Shown one piece after another: positions 18,259 through 61,917 of a stretch of DNA of 64,000 nt. How positions within the stretch are numbered: the first letter of the stretch is position 1; each line of letters starts with the position of its first letter. The notes under the pieces were generated by a model. It was not told where the DNA came from. It was given only the letters and a program-made list of their open reading frames with translations, and did not search any database. The DNA lies in NCBI RefSeq assembly GCF_022378355.1, contig NZ_JAKMAJ010000006.1, positions 203,213-267,212 on the forward strand. Direction: 5' to 3'. The stretch is from Brenneria bubanii. Its GTDB lineage: Bacteria > Pseudomonadota > Gammaproteobacteria > Enterobacterales > Enterobacteriaceae. Made by a program: the position numbers and the translations under genes.

Positions 18259-18334
18259 GCCCGGATAGCTCAGTCGGTAGAGCAGAGGATTGAAAATCCT
18301 CGTGTCCTTGGTTCGATTCCGAGTCCGGGCACCA
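18259..18334 (+). tRNA. pheV: tRNA-Phe (anticodon GAA), ICE attachment gene
   Basis: A 76-nt cloverleaf with encoded CCA. The acceptor arm is GCCCGGA with TCCGGGC, the D-arm AGCTCAGTCGGTAGAGC, the T-loop GGTTCGATTCC, and anticodon GAA at 18292-18294. It is near-identical to E. coli tRNA-Phe. ICEs of the SPI-7/HAI2 group often integrate into the 3' end of tRNA-Phe, and ICE genes begin directly downstream, so the 3' half is the likely attL core. The matching attR repeat is outside the window. The gene symbol (pheV versus pheU) cannot be decided from sequence. Confidence 0.97.
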
Positions 18335-22966: not shown

Positions 22967-23650
22967 TCAGGCAATACTTTCCCGTCTTGACGGTAACCGA
23001 TGTGTCCAGTTCCCCAGATAATGTCCGGGCGTGTAGAGGATCCGACGACGCTCATCGTTAAGGCTGTTCCCAATCACGACTTCACCCGCTACGCCGCAAA
23101 GCGACAACTGTATGTAGGCCATTCCAGCCGCCAGTGGATCAACATCCGTCGCGGAAACCCACAGGTGACGGTGCGAAGCGTAACCTGCCTGGTTAAGAAC
23201 ATCGGCATAGGCCAATACCATGCAACCCGCTCCGCATGCAGGCTCGCTGAGCGTGATAAAGGGACGCTGCTTAAACACCTTATTCACATCGCCCAGCTGT
23301 ATTTTTGCCATCATGAGTGAAATTTCCCACGGCGTAAAAAACTGGCCGCGGTATTTGTCGCCCAGCTCCAGTTGCATAAATACCCGGCCGAGGAAGTCAC
23401 AGAATCCGGCCTGCAGCCCATTAACCACATGGGCAAGCAGCTGCGCCAGACGACCCACATCCGTTTTTTCATAGCCACTGATTATTCGCATATATTTGTC
23501 CTCTCGCTTTTGGCTGAAGCAAAGCCGGTTCTCCAGCGCGATCACGCTGCAGCTGACAAAATCTTCGAATACCTTGTGGCGCTTATGGTATCGCGCAGTC
23601 TGGTTAAAAAGAGAAACAAAAGCCTTTTCATGGTTAATAACGCCGTTCAT
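22967..23650 (-). CDS. N6-adenine methylase-like protein without the NPPY motif
   Basis: A 227-residue protein resembling type I restriction M subunits. It has the GQFFTPWEIS motif and the SAM-binding motif LSEPACGAGCMVLAY, followed by ATDVDPLAAGMAYIQLSLCG. The region where motif IV (N/D-PP-Y/F) should stand reads VVIGNSLNDERRRILYTPGHYLGNW and has no NPPY, so base methylation is doubtful. I recall similar short proteins in other ICEs and plasmids. ATG 23707 is upstream in frame, but 23650 (MNGVINHEKAF) has GGAGAG close by and a shared-type leader. It is the last gene of the accessory operon. Confidence 0.75.
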   Translation of the reverse strand: MNGVINHEKAFVSLFNQTARYHKRHKVFEDFVSCSVIALENRLCFSQKREDKYMRIISGYEKTDVGRLAQLLAHVVNGLQAGFCDFLGRVFMQLELGDKYRGQFFTPWEISLMMAKIQLGDVNKVFKQRPFITLSEPACGAGCMVLAYADVLNQAGYASHRHLWVSATDVDPLAAGMAYIQLSLCGVAGEVVIGNSLNDERRRILYTPGHYLGNWTHRLPSRRESIA

Positions 23651-23711
23651 ACGTGCTCTCCACAAAAAAGGGAACACGTATCCCGTCAGGGAAACAATGT
23701 TCCCCAACGGG
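23651..23711 (-). promoter_or_regulatory. Switch-like RNA leader, gene at 22967-23650
   Basis: Segments on the plus strand: C ACGTGCTC (23651-23658) touching the ATG, B GAACACGT within 23670-23679, A TGTTCCC (23698-23704), outer arms CCCGT (23682-23686) and ACGGG (23707-23711). B can pair with C over 8 bp (one G-U) next to the SD, or with A over 7 bp. Confidence 0.6.
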
Positions 23712-23769
23712 TAAAAAGGCCACCGTTATCAGCTGTGGCCACAGGTTAATTTAAACGCAAAGACGGCGG

Positions 23770-24684
23770 TTAACTGGCAGTTGCATTTGACGAAAGCGGC
23801 ACTGAATCCTTGTCTGCGTAGGTCAGGTACACAACCTCACCCTCAGGCTCTATTCGTCCACCATCGACATGTTCGCCACGGTCGTAACAGTCATAACCAC
23901 TGCGTTCCGCATCCGGCATAAACCAGGCATGCTCGACCTGGCAACTGAACTGCTCTGATAATACCCCGATAACTTCGCCCGCCGGCGGATACCACGGAGA
24001 GTCGAAATGCACCGTTAACGTGTTGATACCGTCACGAACGCAACCAACGTTATGCCCACATGGCCATTCAACCCCGTACTGGCGGCCGTAAAGCCCGGGC
24101 GTTGTCGGCACGTCCCGCAACAGATCCCCTGAACCATTCAGTTCAGTGGCCAAACGTGTCGGTATCAGCATCAGCATATCGCACGGGGCGGTATACTCAG
24201 GCATCATGCCCAGACGTTCCCAGCAATTGCCGGCATCAATGACGGGGCTGACGCCGACGATGCCAAACCAGTCCGCATACTGACGGGTGAGCACATCCGC
24301 AATACGATCCTGCGCCACGGCCGGGATATTTTCCCACTTCACCGCATCGATGCCTGACTGTCGGTAAAGACGTTCAATCAGTCGAATGTTTTCAGTCGTT
24401 AACGGCACATCCGCTTTCAGCAACCCGAACCATTGTTCAAAGGCCAGATTCTGCGGTGAGGCCACGCCAGGATGCGCCAGTAATCCTGGATAGGGTACAT
24501 AGATACCGTGCTTTACCGTCGCCGGCTTCAATATTCCGGCGCAACCTGCCAAAAACAGGCGGCAGCTCTGCAAAATGGCATGACGATAATCAGGCACCAC
24601 ATGCCCATTGGCCCATTTTTGCACCTCATCCACAAACACGGATTGGCCAGTGATAATCAAACGATTGTTGCACCAGTTCGACAT
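23770..24684 (-). CDS. YubB ferredoxin-like domain protein (DUF1281/Api92 type)
   Basis: A 304-residue protein starting MSNWCNNRLIITGQ, the hallmark of the DUF1281/YubB family found on plasmids, ICEs and phages. The C-terminal part FDSPWYPPAGEVIGVLSEQF and the tail with a tyrosine and acidic pattern (GYDCYDRGEHVDGG) complete the ferredoxin-like domain. Molecular function is unknown; such proteins travel with anti-restriction and replication accessory genes. ATG 24684 has GAGGAG upstream and lies behind a hairpin leader. The gene is followed by the leader of the methylase-like gene. Confidence 0.85.
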   Translation of the reverse strand: MSNWCNNRLIITGQSVFVDEVQKWANGHVVPDYRHAILQSCRLFLAGCAGILKPATVKHGIYVPYPGLLAHPGVASPQNLAFEQWFGLLKADVPLTTENIRLIERLYRQSGIDAVKWENIPAVAQDRIADVLTRQYADWFGIVGVSPVIDAGNCWERLGMMPEYTAPCDMLMLIPTRLATELNGSGDLLRDVPTTPGLYGRQYGVEWPCGHNVGCVRDGINTLTVHFDSPWYPPAGEVIGVLSEQFSCQVEHAWFMPDAERSGYDCYDRGEHVDGGRIEPEGEVVYLTYADKDSVPLSSNATAS

Positions 24685-24754
24685 GGTCGTTCTCCTCTTA
24701 TTTACAAGAAAAAGAGGGAGTTTCCCCCATAGGGGGAATGTCTCCCCCTATGGG
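24685..24754 (-). promoter_or_regulatory. Hairpin leader, DUF1281 gene
   Basis: A perfect 12-bp stem (CCCATAGGGGGA 24726-24737 with TCCCCCTATGGG 24743-24754) without a U-tract stands 41 nt before the ATG. The following CTCCCTC can pair with the GAGGAG ribosome-binding site. The three-segment pattern seen in the other leaders is weaker here. Confidence 0.5.
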
Positions 24755-24801
24755 TCAGGTGTTAAATCATGACAGTCAGGCTGATTACGCCTTCCTCTCT
24801 G

Positions 24802-25077
24802 TTAGCTGTATTCTTCTTCCGCCTCCAGGATAACCTTCAACTCGTCGGCTTCACGGATATACGGTGATAGTGGCTGATAGTCAGTGGAATCAATGCGTTC
24901 AAGGTGGTACTTGTCCACCAGGGTGTTGATCGCCTCAAATGGCCGTATCCCAGCCTCCTCTAAAGCAATAACGCAATCATCTTCACACAGCTCGGTATCG
25001 TTTAACGTCAGGCCAAAGTAGTTGGCCAGAAGCATGCCGGCAGTAGATTGCCAGATTTGTTGTTCATGATTCATCAT
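24802..25077 (-). CDS. Small acidic accessory protein, unknown
   Basis: A 91-residue acidic protein (MMNHEQQIWQSTAGMLLANYFGLTLNDTELCEDDCV, tail LKVILEAEEEYS). I do not recognise the family. GAGGGG precedes two adjacent ATGs (25077 and 25074). Only 10 nt separate it from the stop of the ArdC-like gene, so it is translationally coupled. It is the only gene in the operon without its own hairpin leader. Its acidic, DNA-mimic-like composition next to an antirestriction gene is suggestive but not proof of function. Confidence 0.65.
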   Translation of the reverse strand: MMNHEQQIWQSTAGMLLANYFGLTLNDTELCEDDCVIALEEAGIRPFEAINTLVDKYHLERIDSTDYQPLSPYIREADELKVILEAEEEYS

Positions 25078-25087
25078 GATGCCCCTC

Positions 25088-26098
25088 TCATGCCGCCACC
25101 GCGGATTCAGTCGTCCCCATTTCTGCTTCAGCCAGAGGCGTTAACAGAAACTCGGATGCCTCCCTTGCCTGTTTGCTGGCACGAAAAATCGCACGTTTAT
25201 CCTCATGCAGCACCTTAAGCCAGGACTCAAGGTAACTGTCGTGCTGGACATGACCGAAGAGCCCCAACTGCGCACATAAAAAAGCGCTGCCCAGCTCGGC
25301 CACCAGTTCTTCAAACGCATAAAGCGGATCGCCGAACCGGCGCGAAGTTAAGGTGATCCCCTCACGATTAAGCCGTTTGGCATGACCGGTACAGTGTACC
25401 AGTTCATGCAGCAACGTTGACCAGTAGTCCGCCTCGGTTCGAAACTGCCGAACCTGCGGCAAAACAATCTGGTCGCGGCCCGGTGAGTAAAACGCCTTGT
25501 CCTGGTAAATCCGGTCAAATTGAACGCCACAGGCTTCAACCATCGTATTAACCTGTTCCTGAACTTTCCCATCAACCCGCGTGACATCCTGTTCCGGAGC
25601 ATCTGCCGGCGGTTCGCCGACAACGCAATCCGGGAGGTCATCACACTGGGCGACGTTAAACAGATACAGGGGTTTCAGCATGGGTATTCGCATTTTCAGC
25701 GGGTTCCCGTCGTCGTCCAGTTGCGGCTTACCGTCGGCATCTTCCACCTGTTTATCCCAGGGTTTGAATACCACGGCCAGTGTCGCGCTCTCGCCTGCGC
25801 GCACATGGCCACCGACGGCTTGCGCCTGTTTGTAGGTTAACCAGCGATTAGCCTCATAGCCCTTCTCAGCAGCAGCTATCCATAACAGCAATACATTGAC
25901 GCCGCTGTAGAGATAACCGGTCGTGCCGTTACACGGCATGGCGGCATGCGAAGAAATACGGCGCTGATTGGTTCGCCATGGCTTACGCCAGGGCAAGGTT
26001 CCATTCTCTATGGCCACAATGATTTTGTCCGTCACCTGCTGATACAGATCCGGACGGTCGCCACGAGATTGAGTGAACTGACGTGATGTTTTTTTCAT
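25088..26098 (-). CDS. ardC: ArdC-like antirestriction protein with zincin-like domain
   Basis: A 336-residue protein with the ArdC layout. The N-terminal ssDNA-binding domain (DUF1738; RPDLYQQVTDKIIVAIENGT, WRKPW) covers about residues 15-150. The C-terminal metallopeptidase-like domain has HELVH (His231, Glu232, His235), followed by FEELVAELGSAFLC, which provides the third ligand. ArdC on plasmid pSa protects incoming single-stranded DNA from restriction. ATG 26179 is upstream in frame, but MKKTSRQF at 26098 has GAGGAG before it and the family start. It is cotranscribed with the other accessory genes. Confidence 0.88.
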   Translation of the reverse strand: MKKTSRQFTQSRGDRPDLYQQVTDKIIVAIENGTLPWRKPWRTNQRRISSHAAMPCNGTTGYLYSGVNVLLLWIAAAEKGYEANRWLTYKQAQAVGGHVRAGESATLAVVFKPWDKQVEDADGKPQLDDDGNPLKMRIPMLKPLYLFNVAQCDDLPDCVVGEPPADAPEQDVTRVDGKVQEQVNTMVEACGVQFDRIYQDKAFYSPGRDQIVLPQVRQFRTEADYWSTLLHELVHCTGHAKRLNREGITLTSRRFGDPLYAFEELVAELGSAFLCAQLGLFGHVQHDSYLESWLKVLHEDKRAIFRASKQAREASEFLLTPLAEAEMGTTESAVAA

Positions 26099-26160
26099 GG
26101 AGTGCTCCTCATAAAAAAAGGCGCATTCCTCCCCAGGTGGCGAAGAATACGCCCTGGGGG
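26099..26160 (-). promoter_or_regulatory. Switch-like RNA leader, ardC-like gene
   Basis: Outer arms CCCCAGG (26131-26137) and CCTGGGG (26153-26159). On the minus strand B (AGGAATGCGCC) pairs over about 12 positions, including G-U pairs, with A (GGGCGTATTCTT) inside the arms. It also pairs with C (GCACTCC, next to the ATG) with one mismatch. The SD GAGGAG lies between B and C. Confidence 0.6.
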
Positions 26161-26172
26161 ACAGAAAAAGGG

Positions 26173-26775
26173 TTAGCAAGCGGGGTAACGTATCGCCCCT
26201 AGCGCGTTGACCGAGTCAATGCGTTGTTTCAGTAACCTGAAAGCGGCCTGGAACTCTTCCCGATCGCGCGGTTTAGCCCGTTTGCAAGCGGTGTAGCAAG
26301 CCGTTCCCAGCAAGTTGATGGCGCTGTTACGCCAGCGTTTCAGTTCCGATTTACCGACACATGCCGGATAATGGACGTTAGCCTGTTGCAACAGACGCGC
26401 CGCCATTCGACGGTAATCAGCAACGCATACCCACTCAACAGGAGCAACATGAATGATGAGTTCCTCTTTGAGTAAATGTATTCGTAACTGTTTGCCTTCA
26501 GACAGTATTCGTTCAGCAGCCTTTGCATCCAGTTTGAGGTGCTCGCAAAAATCATCACCACCGGCAAATTCACAGGCAGTATCGTACCAGTCCTCATCCT
26601 TTTCAGGATTGCAGCCATCCGCATAAACCAGATACTTGATATGACCATCTTTTCGCCACGCTCCCTCCGCCGACATCAGGTAAATCCCCTGATCCTTGAC
26701 CAGCAACAACTCACACTGGTTAGCCAAAGTTTCCTCGACGACCGGACGCAATTCCGCAGGGTTAAAATGCAACAT
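26173..26775 (-). CDS. DUF3085-like accessory protein
   Basis: A 200-residue protein. Residues 1-60 (MLHFNPAELRPVVEETLANQ, LLVKDQGIYLMS) resemble DUF3085, a domain of unknown function on conjugative elements. The rest (HIKYLVYADGCNPEKDEDWYDTACEFAGGDDFCEHL) fits the same family, and the C-terminal 80 residues are basic with several cysteines. I chose ATG 26775 over 26790 because AAGGAGA is 7 nt upstream. It overlaps no neighbour and is preceded by a hairpin leader. Confidence 0.75.
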   Translation of the reverse strand: MLHFNPAELRPVVEETLANQCELLLVKDQGIYLMSAEGAWRKDGHIKYLVYADGCNPEKDEDWYDTACEFAGGDDFCEHLKLDAKAAERILSEGKQLRIHLLKEELIIHVAPVEWVCVADYRRMAARLLQQANVHYPACVGKSELKRWRNSAINLLGTACYTACKRAKPRDREEFQAAFRLLKQRIDSVNALGAIRYPAC

Positions 26776-26830
26776 GTTTGTCTCCTTCAATAACGGAGGG
26801 AGCTTCCCGGGAAGGAAAGCTCCCTCCGGG
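26776..26830 (-). promoter_or_regulatory. Hairpin leader, DUF3085-like gene
   Basis: An inverted repeat of 13 nt (26795-26807 with 26814-26827, core GGAGGGAGCTT) lies 20 nt upstream of the ATG. It corresponds to the A-B pairing of the other leaders. The B-C pairing is limited here to a few bases around GGAG. Confidence 0.5.
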
Positions 26831-26880
26831 GATTAACGCCTTAAAGGCGCAGGGGTGTTTAGCTCAAAGCCGTAAAGTCA

Positions 26881-27513
26881 TCAGTATTCGTAAAAACTTT
26901 CCGCTTTTAGTTGATACAAACGATGTTCGGTTTCAGTCAGGATCCGCCAATCGTCTTTATTCAGAGAACGCTTCGGATCGGACAGAAAAGTAAGTAAAAG
27001 CTCGTCTACAGAGCCCGCCATCACTGTCACGGAAGACGGTGAAAGCGGAGCCGATAACACAGGCCAGCCCAGATTCCGGTTCAGCCAACGTAACGGCATA
27101 GACCAACTGGCTTCGCCGGCAGAGGAATGCACCCGAAAATTATTTCGGCAGAGACTGTGCAACAGCACCATGACAAGCCGACTAAAAAAATCATAGGGTT
27201 GATGCTGCGGGGTAAATTCCTGAACGCAAAGTGTGTTGTTGCTACGTATACGTTCGACAGTAATGACATCCGGTCGGTGTTCAGCATCAGTTTCGCCTGA
27301 AAAGACCAGAACGCCAGCGTCAGGGAACAGACCAGAGGCATCAGTCAGTGCCCTGTGCTGCCCATCATACGGACGCAAAACAGAGGGTAATTTCCAAAAT
27401 GTGTCCGTCACTGCCAGCACAAAATTTTGCCAATCGTGAGGGGCAACAGTATTCACCTGCTCAATGGTGTAAGTGATGGGTTCAACCGTGGGGTTGAAAG
27501 ATAACGCGCTCAT
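26881..27513 (-). CDS. Accessory operon protein, unknown
   Basis: A 210-residue soluble protein (MSALSFNPTVEPITYTIEQVNTVAPHDW) that I do not recognise. It has no evident signal peptide or membrane segment. GGAGG lies upstream of ATG 27513. The leader before it is the clearest of the set. It sits in the middle of the leftward accessory operon between two other unknowns, so a role in ICE establishment rather than transfer machinery is plausible but unproven. Confidence 0.7.
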   Translation of the reverse strand: MSALSFNPTVEPITYTIEQVNTVAPHDWQNFVLAVTDTFWKLPSVLRPYDGQHRALTDASGLFPDAGVLVFSGETDAEHRPDVITVERIRSNNTLCVQEFTPQHQPYDFFSRLVMVLLHSLCRNNFRVHSSAGEASWSMPLRWLNRNLGWPVLSAPLSPSSVTVMAGSVDELLLTFLSDPKRSLNKDDWRILTETEHRLYQLKAESFYEY

Positions 27514-27580
27514 GAATAAATCCTCCAGGAAGAAATGAAGGGGGATTTATCCCCCGGACGGGAATAAATCCCCGTCAGGG
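27514..27580 (-). promoter_or_regulatory. Switch-like RNA leader, gene at 26881-27513 (clearest example)
   Basis: Plus-strand segments: C GAATAAATCC (27514-27523) directly before the ATG, B GGATTTATCC (27543-27552) and A GGAATAAATCCCC (27561-27573). B pairs with C over 10 bp (one G-U), burying the region next to the GGAGG. Extended B pairs with A over 12 of 13 positions. The two pairings are mutually exclusive. Confidence 0.7.
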
Positions 27581-27606
27581 TCAGTCGTTACAGAAAACCA
27601 AACGCT

Positions 27607-27957
27607 TTAATGGTAACGATAACGAAGTGAAGCAAGATGTTCGGCCAGAATCATTGCCGCCGCCATTGCCTCCCTTTGAGTACGAAACACCACTGAAGCC
27701 GTTCCTGCTGTCAATGGCCGGATAGAAAAACGGTACTTCCCGGCATGGAATCCAGAACGAGAGATGATTGACGCCCCCCAACCACCAGATGGCAGTGGGA
27801 AAGCTCTGGCCCTAAAGCTCAGATCGCCCATAGCGGTATGTTTCCACTCCCCTTCAATTACGCCTTCCAGTGCCGGGTTTATTCGGCACCAGAGCGAACG
27901 CAATTTTTCGGTGACGCGAAAAGTTGGGCGTAAGTAACGCAGTGAAAAGGTATGCAT
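27607..27957 (-). CDS. Accessory operon protein, unknown
   Basis: A 116-residue basic protein (MHTFSLRYLRPTFRVTEKLRSLWCRI; tail EHLASLRYRYH). It is not recognised. AGGAG precedes ATG 27957 and a switch-like leader lies directly upstream. The C-terminal LRYRYH resembles the LRYRF end of the broken gene at 28622-28806, and their leaders share GGTGTTTCTCC, so the two may derive from one duplicated unit. Confidence 0.65.
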   Translation of the reverse strand: MHTFSLRYLRPTFRVTEKLRSLWCRINPALEGVIEGEWKHTAMGDLSFRARAFPLPSGGWGASIISRSGFHAGKYRFSIRPLTAGTASVVFRTQREAMAAAMILAEHLASLRYRYH

Positions 27958-28017
27958 GGTGTTTCTCCTGTAAAAACGGGAAACACCCGTCCCATCGGGA
28001 AGGTATTTCCCGATGGG
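27958..28017 (-). promoter_or_regulatory. Switch-like RNA leader, gene at 27607-27957
   Basis: Plus-strand C GGTGTTTC (27958-27965), B GAAACACC (27980-27987), A GGTATTTCCC (28002-28011). B-C is a perfect 8-bp pairing adjacent to the AGGAG. B-A is 10 bp with one G-U. Outer arms CCCATCGGGAA and TTCCCGATGGG form a long alternative hairpin. Confidence 0.7.
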
Positions 28018-28159
28018 TAAGCCAACTGCAAAGCAGACTGGCCTCTAGGTAAAATGACAGAAGCTCCCTCACAGGGAGTCCCCTGCCGGGTGAATAAAAA
28101 CACACGCTATGCCGCCGAACCTGCGCGGTGGCATAGCCGCAACATCGTTATTCTCAGAC

Positions 28160-28540
28160 TCAGAAACCGAGCGCCGCAATGGCTTCGTCGCCCTCGCCGT
28201 TAATTTTGCCGTTGGACAAGCCCCATGCCCACGCCTCTGCGTGAACTTCGTTACCCAGACGGTGCAGGTTGCTCAACACTTCCCGACCGCTCTCAGAAAG
28301 TTCCGGCAGGACATCCCGCTTCAGGTAATACAGGAAGAAACCGAAAGTTTCGCCGACGCTGATAACAGTATTTTCCAGATCGGTCAGCTCATGAGGTGCT
28401 TCCCGTTCCTGACGAAGTCCGAGCCGACGACAGGCTCTTGCGGTATACAGCTCGCCTTCAATCGCGCAAAGGTAGAAAAGCACATCCAGGGACGTTTTCA
28501 GGTCAAAAACATTAGTACGGAAGTTAATTGGGGTATTCAT
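28160..28540 (-). CDS. Accessory operon protein, unknown, helical
   Basis: A 126-residue, probably all-helical protein (MNTPINFRTNVFDLKTSLDVLFYLCAIEGELY; LTDLENTVISVGETFGFFLYYL). I do not recognise the family. No membrane segment is clear. AGAGG lies upstream of ATG 28540 with a switch-like leader. It stands near the promoter-proximal end of the accessory operon. Confidence 0.68.
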   Translation of the reverse strand: MNTPINFRTNVFDLKTSLDVLFYLCAIEGELYTARACRRLGLRQEREAPHELTDLENTVISVGETFGFFLYYLKRDVLPELSESGREVLSNLHRLGNEVHAEAWAWGLSNGKINGEGDEAIAALGF

Positions 28541-28598
28541 CGGTAAATCCTCTTTAAAGCGGGATTTACCCCCTGAACGGAAGTAAATCCCGTCAGGG
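28541..28598 (-). promoter_or_regulatory. Switch-like RNA leader, gene at 28160-28540
   Basis: Plus-strand C GGTAAATCC (28542-28550), B GGATTTACC (28562-28570), A GTAAATCCCG (28583-28592). B-C is a perfect 9-bp pairing 1 nt from the ATG. B-A is a perfect 10-bp pairing. Outer arms CCCTGA and TCAGGG flank A. Confidence 0.7.
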
Positions 28599-28621
28599 TA
28601 TTAGTGAGTAAAATGACCGTT

Positions 28622-28806
28622 TTAAAAGCGATAACGCAGTCTGGCAGATAACATGCGCACGAGCGGCAAAATTACCTGCTTCATTGACGTACCAGCGACT
28701 AAAGCGCGGCGGGCGTCATACGAAGTGATATTCGCTGGACGGTCGATTTGACACGTTGCAGGGTTGAGAACAAATCAGAAACAACTGAATACGTAAAAGC
28801 CGGCAT
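28622..28806 (-). pseudogene. Frameshifted small accessory gene
   Basis: ATG 28806 has GGAG and a switch-like leader. Its frame begins MPAFTYSVVSDLFS and stops early. A second frame then reads VLNPATCQIDRPANITSYDA and on to ARRALVAGTSMKQVILPL, with the end RMLSARLRYRF and stop at 28622. Joining the two needs a single-base shift near codons 11-17. The LRYRF end resembles that of the 27607-27957 protein. A 35-residue product of the first frame is the alternative. I favour a recently broken gene of about 60 residues. Confidence 0.55.
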
Positions 28807-28864
28807 GGTGTTTCTCCAATAAAGAAGGGAAACACTTGCCCAGGGGGAAGGTATTCCCCGGGGG
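28807..28864 (-). promoter_or_regulatory. Switch-like RNA leader, broken gene
   Basis: Plus-strand C GGTGTTTC (28807-28814), B GAAACACT (28829-28836), A GGTATTCCCC (28850-28859). B-C pairs over 7-8 bp and A-B over about 9 positions with G-U pairs. The leader is intact although its gene is frameshifted. Confidence 0.6.
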
Positions 28865-28918: not shown

Positions 28919-29137
28919 CCTTCATCACCGTTAAGTGATCCCTGTTCTCAAAGGCTAAACAGGGTTACCGCCACTAGGGCTTCCTCTTTCAGGCTACGAG
29001 GGTATTTGCAGCCACCCGAAGGCGTTTCTCACAGACCGCTGAAACTTTGGCTGGCACTCACCCGAAGGCGCCTCTCACAGAGTGCTGAGGCATTGGCTGG
29101 TTGTCCGAAGACAACAAGTAAGCCTGTTCATTTTCAG
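28919..29137 (-). ncRNA. Repeated structured RNA element, copy 1
   Basis: A 219-nt element occurring three times in this window. Read on the minus strand it holds GTTGTC-UUCG-GACAAC (29102-29117) and two tandem units, each with a CC-UUCG-GG loop and a longer stem (GTTTC with GAAAC; GCCTC with GAGGC on the plus strand). It ends 52 nt before the leader of the first gene of the accessory operon, so it probably forms the 5' part of that transcript. No open frame is shared between the copies. I know of no Rfam family for it but could not search. Confidence 0.7.
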
Positions 29138-29499: not shown

Positions 29500-29776
29500 A
29501 CCTCTTCAAAGCTTTCAGTGAAATATTCGCAAAAGCGGAAAGGAATGGTAAATCGAGGATAAATCCGGGTGAGGGTTTGAGCCATAAGGCACCTCCAGTG
29601 AGTAACAGATTATACCCACCACCAGAGAGGCTAATCTCATGGGTGGTGGAACCGGACGGGGTTAGCCTTACCGGCCTCACTGACACCGGCGCATCTTTCG
29701 ATGCCCCCGCCCGGCCCACCATTGAAACGTAGCCGAACGCACGACACAAAAAAAGCGCAGACGCGCCTTGTGTCGT
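29500..29776 (-). other. Ash-like reading frame / possible C4-type antisense RNA region
   Basis: On the minus strand a frame from about 29749 reads GYVSMVGRAGASKDAPVSV, then TTHEISLSGGGYNLLL. This resembles the Ash protein signature of P4-like elements, but it has no ATG and no clear ribosome-binding site. The DNA is rich in inverted repeats (GGTGGTGGGTATAA region; perfect 9-bp ACGACACAA/TTGTGTCGT at 29741-29749 and 29768-29776). Ash-like frames in phages often overlap structured immunity RNAs of the C4 type, so an RNA gene is at least as likely as a protein. Confidence 0.4.
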
Positions 29777-29951
29777 CAGTGAAGTTTTTCAGGAGGCTAA
29801 TCCCGGCACCTGATTTTGCAGGTGCGAGTAAAAGATACCGCGTTTGATTACCTTCGGCAAGATGATGCTGTTACATAAAATCGTATTTCACTTCAAAGCG
29901 ATGACGCTTATCCCATTCAAGGGGTTAAATCGATTTGTCGACAAGTTAAAG
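29777..29951. other. Non-coding stretch with a possible operator
   Basis: No gene is visible between the Ash-like region and the terminator of the second recombinase. A small hairpin GCACCTG-N5-CAGGTGC lies near 29804-29822. The sequence ATCGATTTGTCGACAAG (about 29928-29944) repeats, with changes, the sequence beside the HTH gene terminator. Confidence 0.45.
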
Positions 29952-31002: not shown

Positions 31003-31279
31003 CGCAATATCTCCATAGGGAACACACATCCCCCAACTTTCGCAAAAGCAGGCAGATCGATATTCCACATGTTCAACCCCGACGACACGGTTACTTTTGC
31101 GCTTCCTGCGTCTCGACTGGTATCTGTGCATCGGGGCGGCGAAATGTTGAGTTCTTGCGAGGCACCTCAGGTCTCTGACCTGTTTGCTGCTTATGCAGAG
31201 CTGACATTCGTCAAGCTGCCTCCAACACTACTGTTCGTAGTGTCGCCATCGATACCGAGTCGATTTCCTCCTTATAGAT
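31003..31279. other. Non-coding upstream region of the second recombinase
   Basis: No gene with family resemblance or a ribosome-binding site is visible. It should hold the recombinase promoter. Codon-like frames here have no support. Confidence 0.4.
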
Positions 31280-31698: not shown

Positions 31699-31893
31699 CC
31701 TTCATCACTGTCGTGATCTCCGTTCTCAAAGGGTAAACGGAGTTACCGCCACTAAGGCATCCTCTTCCAGGCCAGGAGGATTTTGCGATCACCCGAAGGC
31801 GTTTCTCACAGACCGCTGAAACATTGGATGGCACTCACCCGAAGGCGCCTCTCACAGAGCGCTGAGGCATTGGATGGTCGCCCGGGGACGACA
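31699..31893 (-). ncRNA. Repeated structured RNA element, copy 2
   Basis: The second copy of the element at 28919-29137. The two tandem CACCCGAAGGCG units and both stems (GTTTC/GAAAC and GCCTC/GAGGC) are kept. The outer hairpin changes GTTGTC/GACAAC to GTCGCC/GACGAC, including one T-A to C-G compensatory pair. The terminal CTTCATCAC segment is also present. No leader-type gene follows at once, only a short hairpin (CTGTTCCC/GGGACAG) at 31668-31687, so this copy may have lost its gene. Bases 31894-32147 are AT-rich and empty. Confidence 0.65.
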
Positions 31894-61108: not shown

Positions 61109-61573
61109 TCAGAAGGAGTTTTCTGCGTATTGTTGCTGAGCAGAACCTTGCTGAGGCGGCGTGGAGTCAGATTTCTCAGCCTGATAAACCTTCTCCTGGC
61201 CGATTTTGATCCAATCGACCTTGATCAGGCGGGCTTTCAGACTGACACGTTGTTCACCGGCATGTTCACCGCTGTTGAGCGTAAAAATGTCCGTTTTCAG
61301 GTTGCTGAGCACAAACCCAATCAGGACTTTTTTGTCTTCATCAACCGACTTTTGACAACGATTGATTAGGCTGCTGGCTTCTTTACCGGCGACCGTGACA
61401 TCGAAACGCGTATAACTGGCGTTATCGGTCGGACCAGAAAGTCCGTTGATGACACAGCTGATAAAGGTGCCGTTAGAACCATTGACCTGGCGAACATTGC
61501 TGAGATACCCCATTCCTTTAATGGTCAGGTTGAAATATTCAGTTTTGTTGGACGTGTTTTGCGCTTGAGACAT
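61109..61573 (-). CDS. STY4534-family ICE replication protein (DUF3577)
   Basis: A 154-residue protein (MSQAQNTSNKTEYFNLTIKGMGYLSNVRQV) with the DUF3577 body: FISCVINGLSGPTDNASYTRFDVTVAG and VLIGFVLSNLKTDIFT. The family occurs next to ssb and topB in SPI-7-type ICEs and is thought to serve element replication or maintenance. An upstream ATG at 61672 lies in the leader; 61573 has GGAG and the family start. It follows an RNA leader and a copy of the structured RNA element, the same arrangement as at the accessory operon. Confidence 0.88.
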   Translation of the reverse strand: MSQAQNTSNKTEYFNLTIKGMGYLSNVRQVNGSNGTFISCVINGLSGPTDNASYTRFDVTVAGKEASSLINRCQKSVDEDKKVLIGFVLSNLKTDIFTLNSGEHAGEQRVSLKARLIKVDWIKIGQEKVYQAEKSDSTPPQQGSAQQQYAENSF

Positions 61574-61650
61574 GATGTTTTCTCCATGGAGTGTAGATTC
61601 GGTGACGGAGAAAGACACCTTCCCCGACGGGAAAAGTGTTTCCCGTCGGG
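61574..61650 (-). promoter_or_regulatory. Switch-like RNA leader, DUF3577 gene
   Basis: A perfect 12-bp hairpin (CCCGACGGGAAA 61623-61634 with TTTCCCGTCGGG 61639-61650). Downstream on the minus strand GGTGTCTTTCTCC can pair with GGAGAAAACATC, which holds the Shine-Dalgarno and touches the ATG, leaving one bulge. The design is the same as in the 23-29 kb leaders. Confidence 0.65.
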
Positions 61651-61698
61651 AGTCTGCAAAGTCGTACGTCAATGCAGACAGTCTGGATTGTGAAATGG

Positions 61699-61917
61699 AC
61701 CTTCATCACTGTTGAGTGATCCCCGTTCTCAAAGGTTAAACGGAGTTACCACCACAAGGGCATCCTCTTTCAGGCTACAAGGATATTCGCGATCGCCCGA
61801 AGGCGTTTCTCACAGACCGCTGAAACATTGGTTGGCACTCACCCGAAGGCGCTTCTCACAGAGTGCGGAAGCATTGGCTGGTTGTCCGGAGACAACAAGT
61901 AAGCCTGTTCATTTTTA
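61699..61917 (-). ncRNA. Repeated structured RNA element, copy 3
   Basis: The third copy of the element at 28919 and 31699. It is closest to copy 1. The outer hairpin is GTTGTCCGGAGACAAC and the second tandem unit shows GCTTC/GAAGC instead of GCCTC/GAGGC, a further compensatory change. It ends 48 nt before the DUF3577 leader. Confidence 0.7.

Follow-up and report, generated by a model that had tools for sequence, protein, structure and literature searches.

Leaders with two competing pairings at the ribosome-binding site in Brenneria bubanii and other gammaproteobacteria

Nine leaders on the minus strand of a stretch of Brenneria bubanii DNA probably belong to a family of cis-acting elements, one per gene, that would control translation through two mutually exclusive folds. 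The stretch analysed (the window) comprises 64,000 nt of assembly GCF_022378355.1 (contig NZ_JAKMAJ010000006.1, positions 203,213 to 267,212 of the forward strand); coordinates below are window positions unless another locus is named. The leaders lie directly 5' of the start codons at 23650, 24684, 26098, 26775, 27513, 27957, 28540, 28806 and 61573, and each is named by its start-codon position. In their common plan, a segment B is complementary both to an upstream segment A and to a downstream segment C at the ribosome-binding site; A duplicates the C region and competes with it for B. The leaders are a clear case of three-way covariation (B with A and with C). Direct computation established the anatomy of the leaders, the covariation of A:B as well as B:C, and the distribution of the family. 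The folding energies suggest that the default state is OFF, with an outer hairpin (P1) and B:C formed, and that A:B is an open state that makes opening affordable.

Architecture of the leaders

The leaders share one order. First comes P1, a GC-rich hairpin whose loop and inner arms contain segment A; it is followed by segment B, a frequently T-rich spacer, the Shine-Dalgarno (SD) sequence with segment C, and the start codon, which C reaches or stops near. An earlier note on this DNA had described eight such leaders in one block and another near 61574; all nine were found there on the minus strand, and the order of A, B, SD and C that it gave was borne out in each. The pairing of B with either C or A, which it saw in the best leaders, is clean in five of the nine, where both helices are uninterrupted when G.U pairs are counted: 23650 (B:C of 10 bp and A:B of 9 bp), 27513 (10 and 14 bp), 27957 (8 and 12 bp), 28540 (9 and 14 bp) and 28806 (7 and 9 bp). 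The other four are defective to different degrees. Both helices of leader 24684 have 8 bp, and its C ends 7 nt short of the ATG. The B:C helix of leader 26098 is interrupted by an A.C mismatch that is gone in the orthologous leaders of three Serratia loci (L005, L006 and L026). Leader 61573 has a B:C helix of 9 bp and an A:B helix broken by bulges; the weakest case, leader 26775, is discussed below.

When the window was searched strictly for sets of three perfect helices registered on the SD and the ATG, seven matches were obtained, namely five of the nine leaders, the opposite strand of leader 24684 and one place elsewhere. Ten shuffled windows gave three matches in total.

Covariation of both pairings

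The pairings were compared between own and exchanged partners in three sets of leaders. The first set was drawn from the regions upstream of orthologues of nine window genes (eight genes with leaders and a cbtA-like gene as control), picked blind to pairing from 22 genome-contig loci, two plasmids and further genome loci. It comprised 125 leaders, reduced to 49 non-redundant ones (<72% identity), 48 of which came by gene orthology and the last of which was the added window leader 28806. B pairs better with its own C than with exchanged partners (mean -13.5 vs. -10.1 kcal/mol, z -10.9), and the own upstream region pairs better with B as well (A:B, -18.8 vs. -13.5 kcal/mol, z -12.1); the A:B core, from which the leading G run of B was removed, still gives a z of -9.8. 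The nine window leaders by themselves show the same preference for own partners (z -4.2 for B:C and -3.7 for A:B), and the cbtA-like control, with five non-redundant starts that have no leader, shows neither pairing (z -0.3 and 0.0).

The second set consisted of 45 non-redundant leaders, <72% identical to the first set, found with a covariance model (R1) that was built from 19 leaders, two of them from the window, and that contains the P1 and B:C pairs only. Own partners were again preferred, with a z of -11.1 for B:C and of -7.8 for the A:B core, a pairing that the model does not include. In the third set, 21 leaders of named elements whose likeness to the earlier sets was not filtered, the values were -6.2 for B:C and -10.3 for A:B. 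The 45 nt 5' of B also fold better than their shuffles, with a mean z of -2.45 and with 75 of 94 leaders below -1. In a MAFFT alignment of the leaders (A3), 84.5% of the A:B pairs can form, a value reached by none of 500 shuffles, and B:C pairs changed on both sides number 7 vs. 4.1 (10 of 500 shuffles). RNAalifold applied to a MAFFT alignment (A1) returned four pairs only. The covariation across paralogous sites claimed in the earlier note thus holds in all three sets and extends to other genomes of the class. The note had taken the loss of complementarity in homologous leaders with the gene kept as an outcome that would speak against its claim; such losses are not the rule, although single weak cases such as leader 26775 occur.

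The kinds of mismatch bear on the molecule in which the pairing takes place. Among 85 A:B helices from the 94 leaders, chosen blind to mismatch type, the coding strand has 63 G.T and 12 A.C mismatches, compared with 321 and 157 for exchanged partners (Fisher p ~0.003, an approximate value owing to the pooling of the control over 20 exchanges). The 81 B:C helices show the same trend more weakly (23:11 vs. 123:125, p 0.07). A transcript has a reason for such an excess of G.T on the coding strand and a DNA repeat has none, which supports the view that the pairing acts in the transcript of that strand.

Spread of the family

R1 gave six matches better than E 0.01 in the genome of B. bubanii, all within the element in the window; the best matches outside this element had E-values of 0.12 and 0.16. 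At E of 0.001 or better, 26 of 274 genomes of the class were positive, B. bubanii included. In 20 regions selected for the presence of R1 matches, 103 matches up to E 0.1 were reduced to 85 by removal of those overlapping a better one; some of the 85 are seeds of the model or near-copies of them. Within each region the matches lie on a single strand, and 84 of the 85 end on an ATG, behind which a frame of at least 40 codons follows, or the contig end is reached, in 81 cases. The densest region holds 13 leaders within 13 kb. A scan of the 71 frames of at least 60 codons identified DUF3577 (7), DUF3275 (6), RadC (6), DUF6094 (6), DUF6573 (3) and single-stranded DNA-binding proteins (2), with other families found once or twice.

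In five named annotated records, 20 of 21 R1 matches end exactly on annotated gene starts. These are all seven matches of ICEhin1056, which precede, among others, the genes for DUF3577, DUF3560, radC and a zincin-like metallopeptidase, seven of the eight in pKLC102, and two of two each in pSGI4, pSbal02 and a Burkholderia glumae plasmid. The remaining match in pKLC102 (L180, position 22629) ends on a TTG with no annotated plus-strand gene, and possibly marks a missed gene or is a false match. No type IV secretion system (T4SS) gene stands behind a leader among the 21 matches, and no near-identity match was found in Escherichia coli.

At gathering scores, no model of Rfam 15 hit a leader of the window or of the 16 regions scanned out of the 20 fetched, and looser scans gave the same result. 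The model of the radC RNA motif (RF01754), run on 14 genomes, had no listed match at any leader. Membership in an Rfam family or in the radC motif was rejected on this basis for the sequences scanned. Two MAFFT alignments (28 and 19 leaders) showed no conserved unpaired core of the kind found in a metabolite riboswitch; their invariant columns are bases of P1, the SD and the ATG, and one T. No description of the leaders was found in the literature searched, from which most subscription papers were missing. Together, these results point to a leader family, borne by many genes of a widespread group of self-transferring bacterial elements, that may not have been described before.

Folding energies and a proposed mechanism

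Nearest-neighbour energies were calculated for fold I, consisting of P1 and B:C, and for the best fold that leaves the start site free (fold II). Fold I is lower in 42 of 49 leaders of the first set and 41 of 45 of the second. With B free to join A, opening of the start site has a median cost of 6.6 and 7.4 kcal/mol in the two sets, and without A the cost rises to 15.5 and 16.2 kcal/mol. According to de Smit and van Duin, ribosomes reportedly overcome structure of up to near 6 kcal/mol in phage MS2. If this limit holds here, the lower opening cost means that A would turn a locked site into a near-threshold site. In a transcript that has not yet reached C, A:B has an advantage of at least 2 kcal/mol over P1 with an unpaired B in 48 of 49 leaders of the first set and 42 of 45 of the second, suggesting that A:B forms first and that P1 and B:C close the site later. 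The gain at this stage is larger with the own B than with an exchanged one (median -8.3 vs. -5.4 kcal/mol), and in 39 of 49 leaders it exceeds the median for exchanged B segments.

A switch working by these folds might proceed as follows. In the predicted fold I (OFF), P1 is formed and B lies on C, so that the SD would be buried, as would, in most cases, the bases leading to the start codon. In fold II (open), A would capture B in one longer hairpin and the ribosome-binding site would be free. A:B would form once B is transcribed and C does not yet exist, providing a kinetic gate in which ribosomes have a first chance at the emerging site. A messenger RNA that has not been loaded with a ribosome would relax to fold I and become silent, and a factor favouring A:B could shift the balance between the folds. 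We infer this time course and order of events from the energies. Translational coupling was rejected as a general trigger: the distance from the preceding stop codon to P1 is short inside operons, but it is at least 88 nt in 24 of 33 DUF3577 cases.

Comparison with known switches

In erm-type translational attenuators, the pairings 1:2 and 3:4 constitute the closed state, and an alternate pairing opens the SD. The predicted folds follow the same closed and open logic, with the loop and the 5' side of hairpin 1:2 as the alternative partner of segment 3. The radC RNA motif RF01754 is found in 5' untranslated regions (5'UTRs) in the context of radC and DNA-related genes. The location and gene context of the leaders are similar, although the model of the motif does not match them. 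The motif itself scores over its cut-off at two other places in the B. bubanii genome, on other contigs (C18:6726-6862 and C5:215056-215183).

The closest known case is the 5'UTR of traH on the gonococcal genetic island. As summarised in the available text of PMC8716806, Ramsey et al. (2015) described a pair of stem-loops that cover the SD and start codon; if the upstream part of the first one is unavailable, a single alternate stem-loop leaves the SD and start codon free. By description, the leaders show the same logic: two stem-loops burying the SD and start codon are predicted from the lower energy of fold I in most leaders of both sets, and an alternate stem-loop freeing the start is indicated by the A:B preference for own partners in all three sets. 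The traH switch has been reported from a single island, where a T4SS gene follows it, whereas the leaders here stand one to each gene, form arrays of up to 13 and precede DUF3577, RadC, ArdC-like, methylase and unknown genes. The gonococcal island also carries a DUF3577 gene, according to the available part of PMC3334931. The earlier note had proposed translational ON/OFF switches or transcription-coupled folding control; with the traH precedent, a translational switch is the best reading, and A:B may act as its ON state or as a terminator.

The 5'UTR of parA on the same island resembles the leaders in having two stem-loops, the second of which lies over the SD and start codon, and its effect on translation has been shown. 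In the lacZ fusions of the same text, expression rose ~400-fold in gonococci (legend p 0.14) and over 10-fold in E. coli (p 0.0012) once the inner legs had been removed. Altering leg A of stem-loop 1 abolished the residual expression (PMC8716806). Loss of an A-like decoy would also explain the result for leg A.

Alternative explanations

In a transcription attenuator, the A:B hairpin and a U-rich stretch would be an intrinsic terminator and P1 the antiterminator that frees B for C, with translation being secondary. T runs directly after A:B in window leaders 23650, 24684, 26098 and 27957 agree with this, as do those in the DUF3577 leaders of two small-genome families (f9 and f27; L033 to L046 except L035) and the terminator-like hairpin with a T run just 5' of eight of nine methylase leaders (at 23714-23742 on the minus strand in the window). 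However, at least five T in the eight bases past A:B are found in 13 of 49 leaders, and TTTT also in 13 of 49 (over a shorter stretch where the SD came sooner); many leaders in other gammaproteobacteria lack a T run. Moreover, a terminator would not require B:C to end where it does, at the SD and start codon, and both folds would be off in this reading. Attenuation is thus quite unlikely. An A:B terminator was rejected as a family-wide rule, although single leaders do qualify; with T runs in a minority, termination may add to the family but would not define it. A trans-acting RNA or a protein encoded by the element that binds P1 or A, setting all leaders of one element together as one regulon, is a somewhat unlikely alternative. 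It would account for the grouping of many leaders on a single strand, with 6 to 13 of them in each of the best-covered regions (L137, L138, L142, L143, L145, L177 and L180), and for the confinement of the R1 matches better than E 0.01 in the B. bubanii genome to one element, and STAXI, C4, isrK and EFASI RNAs are also present in the window. However, A, B and C vary among the leaders of one element, so that a single RNA cannot pair with all of them, and this analysis identified no candidate factor. A gonococcal small RNA tried on the parA switch had no effect, according to the available text of PMC8716806.

The leaders could also be plain ribosome-binding sites of low efficiency, with hairpins that keep expression low and insulate neighbouring genes without ever switching. 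Their place in short intergenic gaps (11-20 nt from the preceding stop to P1 in 16 of 25 ardC cases) and the predicted ground state, fold I in most leaders, are consistent with such sites; A:B would be useless in them, yet it is kept with covariation in three sets, making this explanation unlikely. Highly improbable is an origin as inverted repeats at the level of DNA with no RNA function, either protein-binding sites or palindromes maintained through strand-switch repair. The three segments are indeed short repeats, both inverted and direct, and the likeness of repeats can be preserved by repair. However, they are registered on the SD and start codon, their sequences vary from gene to gene, and the coding strand prefers G.T over A.C in A:B and, more weakly, in B:C.

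Several observations weigh against a translational switch between two folds. Gapped pairing energies of single sequences place the eight listed leaders at ranks 3 to 257 among 321 starts. As proof, this measure failed, the leaders not standing apart from GC-rich background starts, and decisive weight was placed on the comparative evidence for that reason. R1 misses or scores poorly three of the window leaders (28540, 26098 and 26775; Table 1), and two places in the window that are not leaders have E-values of 0.17 and 0.18. Leader 26775 has a long A:B helix and a weak B:C helix, and its C pairs best (8 bp) with a different stretch. In alignment A3, B:C pairs form at 77.5% vs. 76.1% in shuffles, 90 of 500 of which are equally high, a shortfall that we attribute to C sequences being nearly identical and to errors of register in this sequence-based alignment. 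Fold II is favoured in 7 of 49 and 4 of 45 leaders. When the bases 5' of A were made unavailable, fold II was favoured in 18 of 46 and 5 of 40 leaders, compared with 6 and 3 of these before, and occlusion of the 5' arm was rejected as a general trigger. The proposed kinetic step is derived from equilibrium energies. The authors of the parA study found no alternate fold (PMC8716806), and in this respect that switch differs from the leaders.

A possible role in mobile elements

To our knowledge, the quieting of dozens of element genes in the host and their raising around transfer have mostly been studied at promoters. Tentatively, the leaders may be an unnamed, widespread RNA family acting as a regulon of bistable switches, one to a gene, in the accessory or early operons of ICEhin1056-, pKLC102- and SPI-7-like elements, with private sequences and a common logic. 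All genes would then answer one generic signal without a common binding sequence, and the signal might be folding kinetics, the supply of ribosomes or a factor that reads the architecture. If this is true, control of these elements would include a so far missing translational layer in which every gene has its own switch, found in reference elements such as ICEhin1056 and pKLC102 too, and the two isolated reports from the gonococcal island would be linked to a general family. Their private sequences would make the leaders a natural set of RNA switches.

Individual leaders and neighbouring features

The window leaders and the leaderless control gene are listed in Table 1. Apart from the named genes, three genes after leaders have no Pfam match and one is an interrupted frame (28616-28806, minus strand) with three stops, whose leader resembles that of gene 27607-27957. 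The DUF3577 gene bears the NCBIfam name STY4534 family ICE (integrative and conjugative element) replication protein.

Table 1. Positions of the leaders and of the leaderless control gene in the window
Feature	Positions	Strand	Observations
Leader of N6-methylase-like gene	23648..23713	-	R1 E 8e-5; A 23697-23705, B 23669-23681, C 23649-23658; T-rich spacer
Leader of DUF1281 gene	24682..24755	-	R1 E 2e-6; B:C over SD, ends 7 nt before ATG
CbtA-like gene (Pfam CbtA_toxin) without leader	24802..25077	-	Start lies 10 nt past the ArdC-like stop codon; serves as a natural negative control
Leader of ArdC-like gene	26096..26160	-	R1 E 0.29, ranked under two non-leader window matches; one B:C mismatch
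Leader of DUF3085 gene	26773..26832	-	R1 E 1.1; A:B strong, B:C weak
Leader of gene 26881-27513	27511..27581	-	R1 E 9e-5; A 27560-27573, B 27541-27554, C 27514-27523
Leader of gene 27607-27957	27955..28019	-	R1 E 3.5e-13 (R1 seed); A 28001-28012, B 27977-27988, C 27958-27965
Leader of gene 28160-28540	28538..28599	-	Strict scan and helices; A 28579-28592, B 28560-28573, C 28542-28550; missed by R1 at E 5
Intact leader before interrupted frame	28804..28864	-	R1 E 6e-12 (R1 seed); A 28851-28859, B 28827-28835, C 28808-28814
Leader of DUF3577 (STY4534-family) gene	61571..61652	-	R1 E 7e-10

The cbtA-like gene is coupled to its neighbour, the ArdC-like gene, and lacks a leader, as the earlier note had it. 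Its relatives occupy the same place in 12 further loci, and the stop of the preceding gene lies 8-14 nt upstream of the cbtA-like start in all 13 cases, the window included.

Several other RNAs occur near the leaders. An isrK RNA and a C4 antisense RNA at 29639-29825 (minus strand) lie upstream of the leader operon, an arrangement like that of P4-like immunity regions, and an EFASI RNA is found at 31114-31263. Three STAXI RNAs lie on the minus strand at 28961-29116, 31739-31893 and 61742-61897, two of them just upstream of leaders 28806 and 61573. STAXI RNA (RF01728) is described near antirestriction and topoisomerase genes in the available part of PMC2864571; it shares the element with the leaders and has a separate place and structure. 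Elsewhere, a sub-threshold match to the LOOT RNA (34 bits vs. a cut-off of 46.4) lies inside the leader-array region L142 (8494-8603, plus strand), and a group II intron match (D1-D4-7) lies at the end of the 13-leader region L143 (274-423, minus strand). The window also contains a tRNA-Phe gene (18259-18334, plus strand), the last bases of which recur at two other places in the genome.

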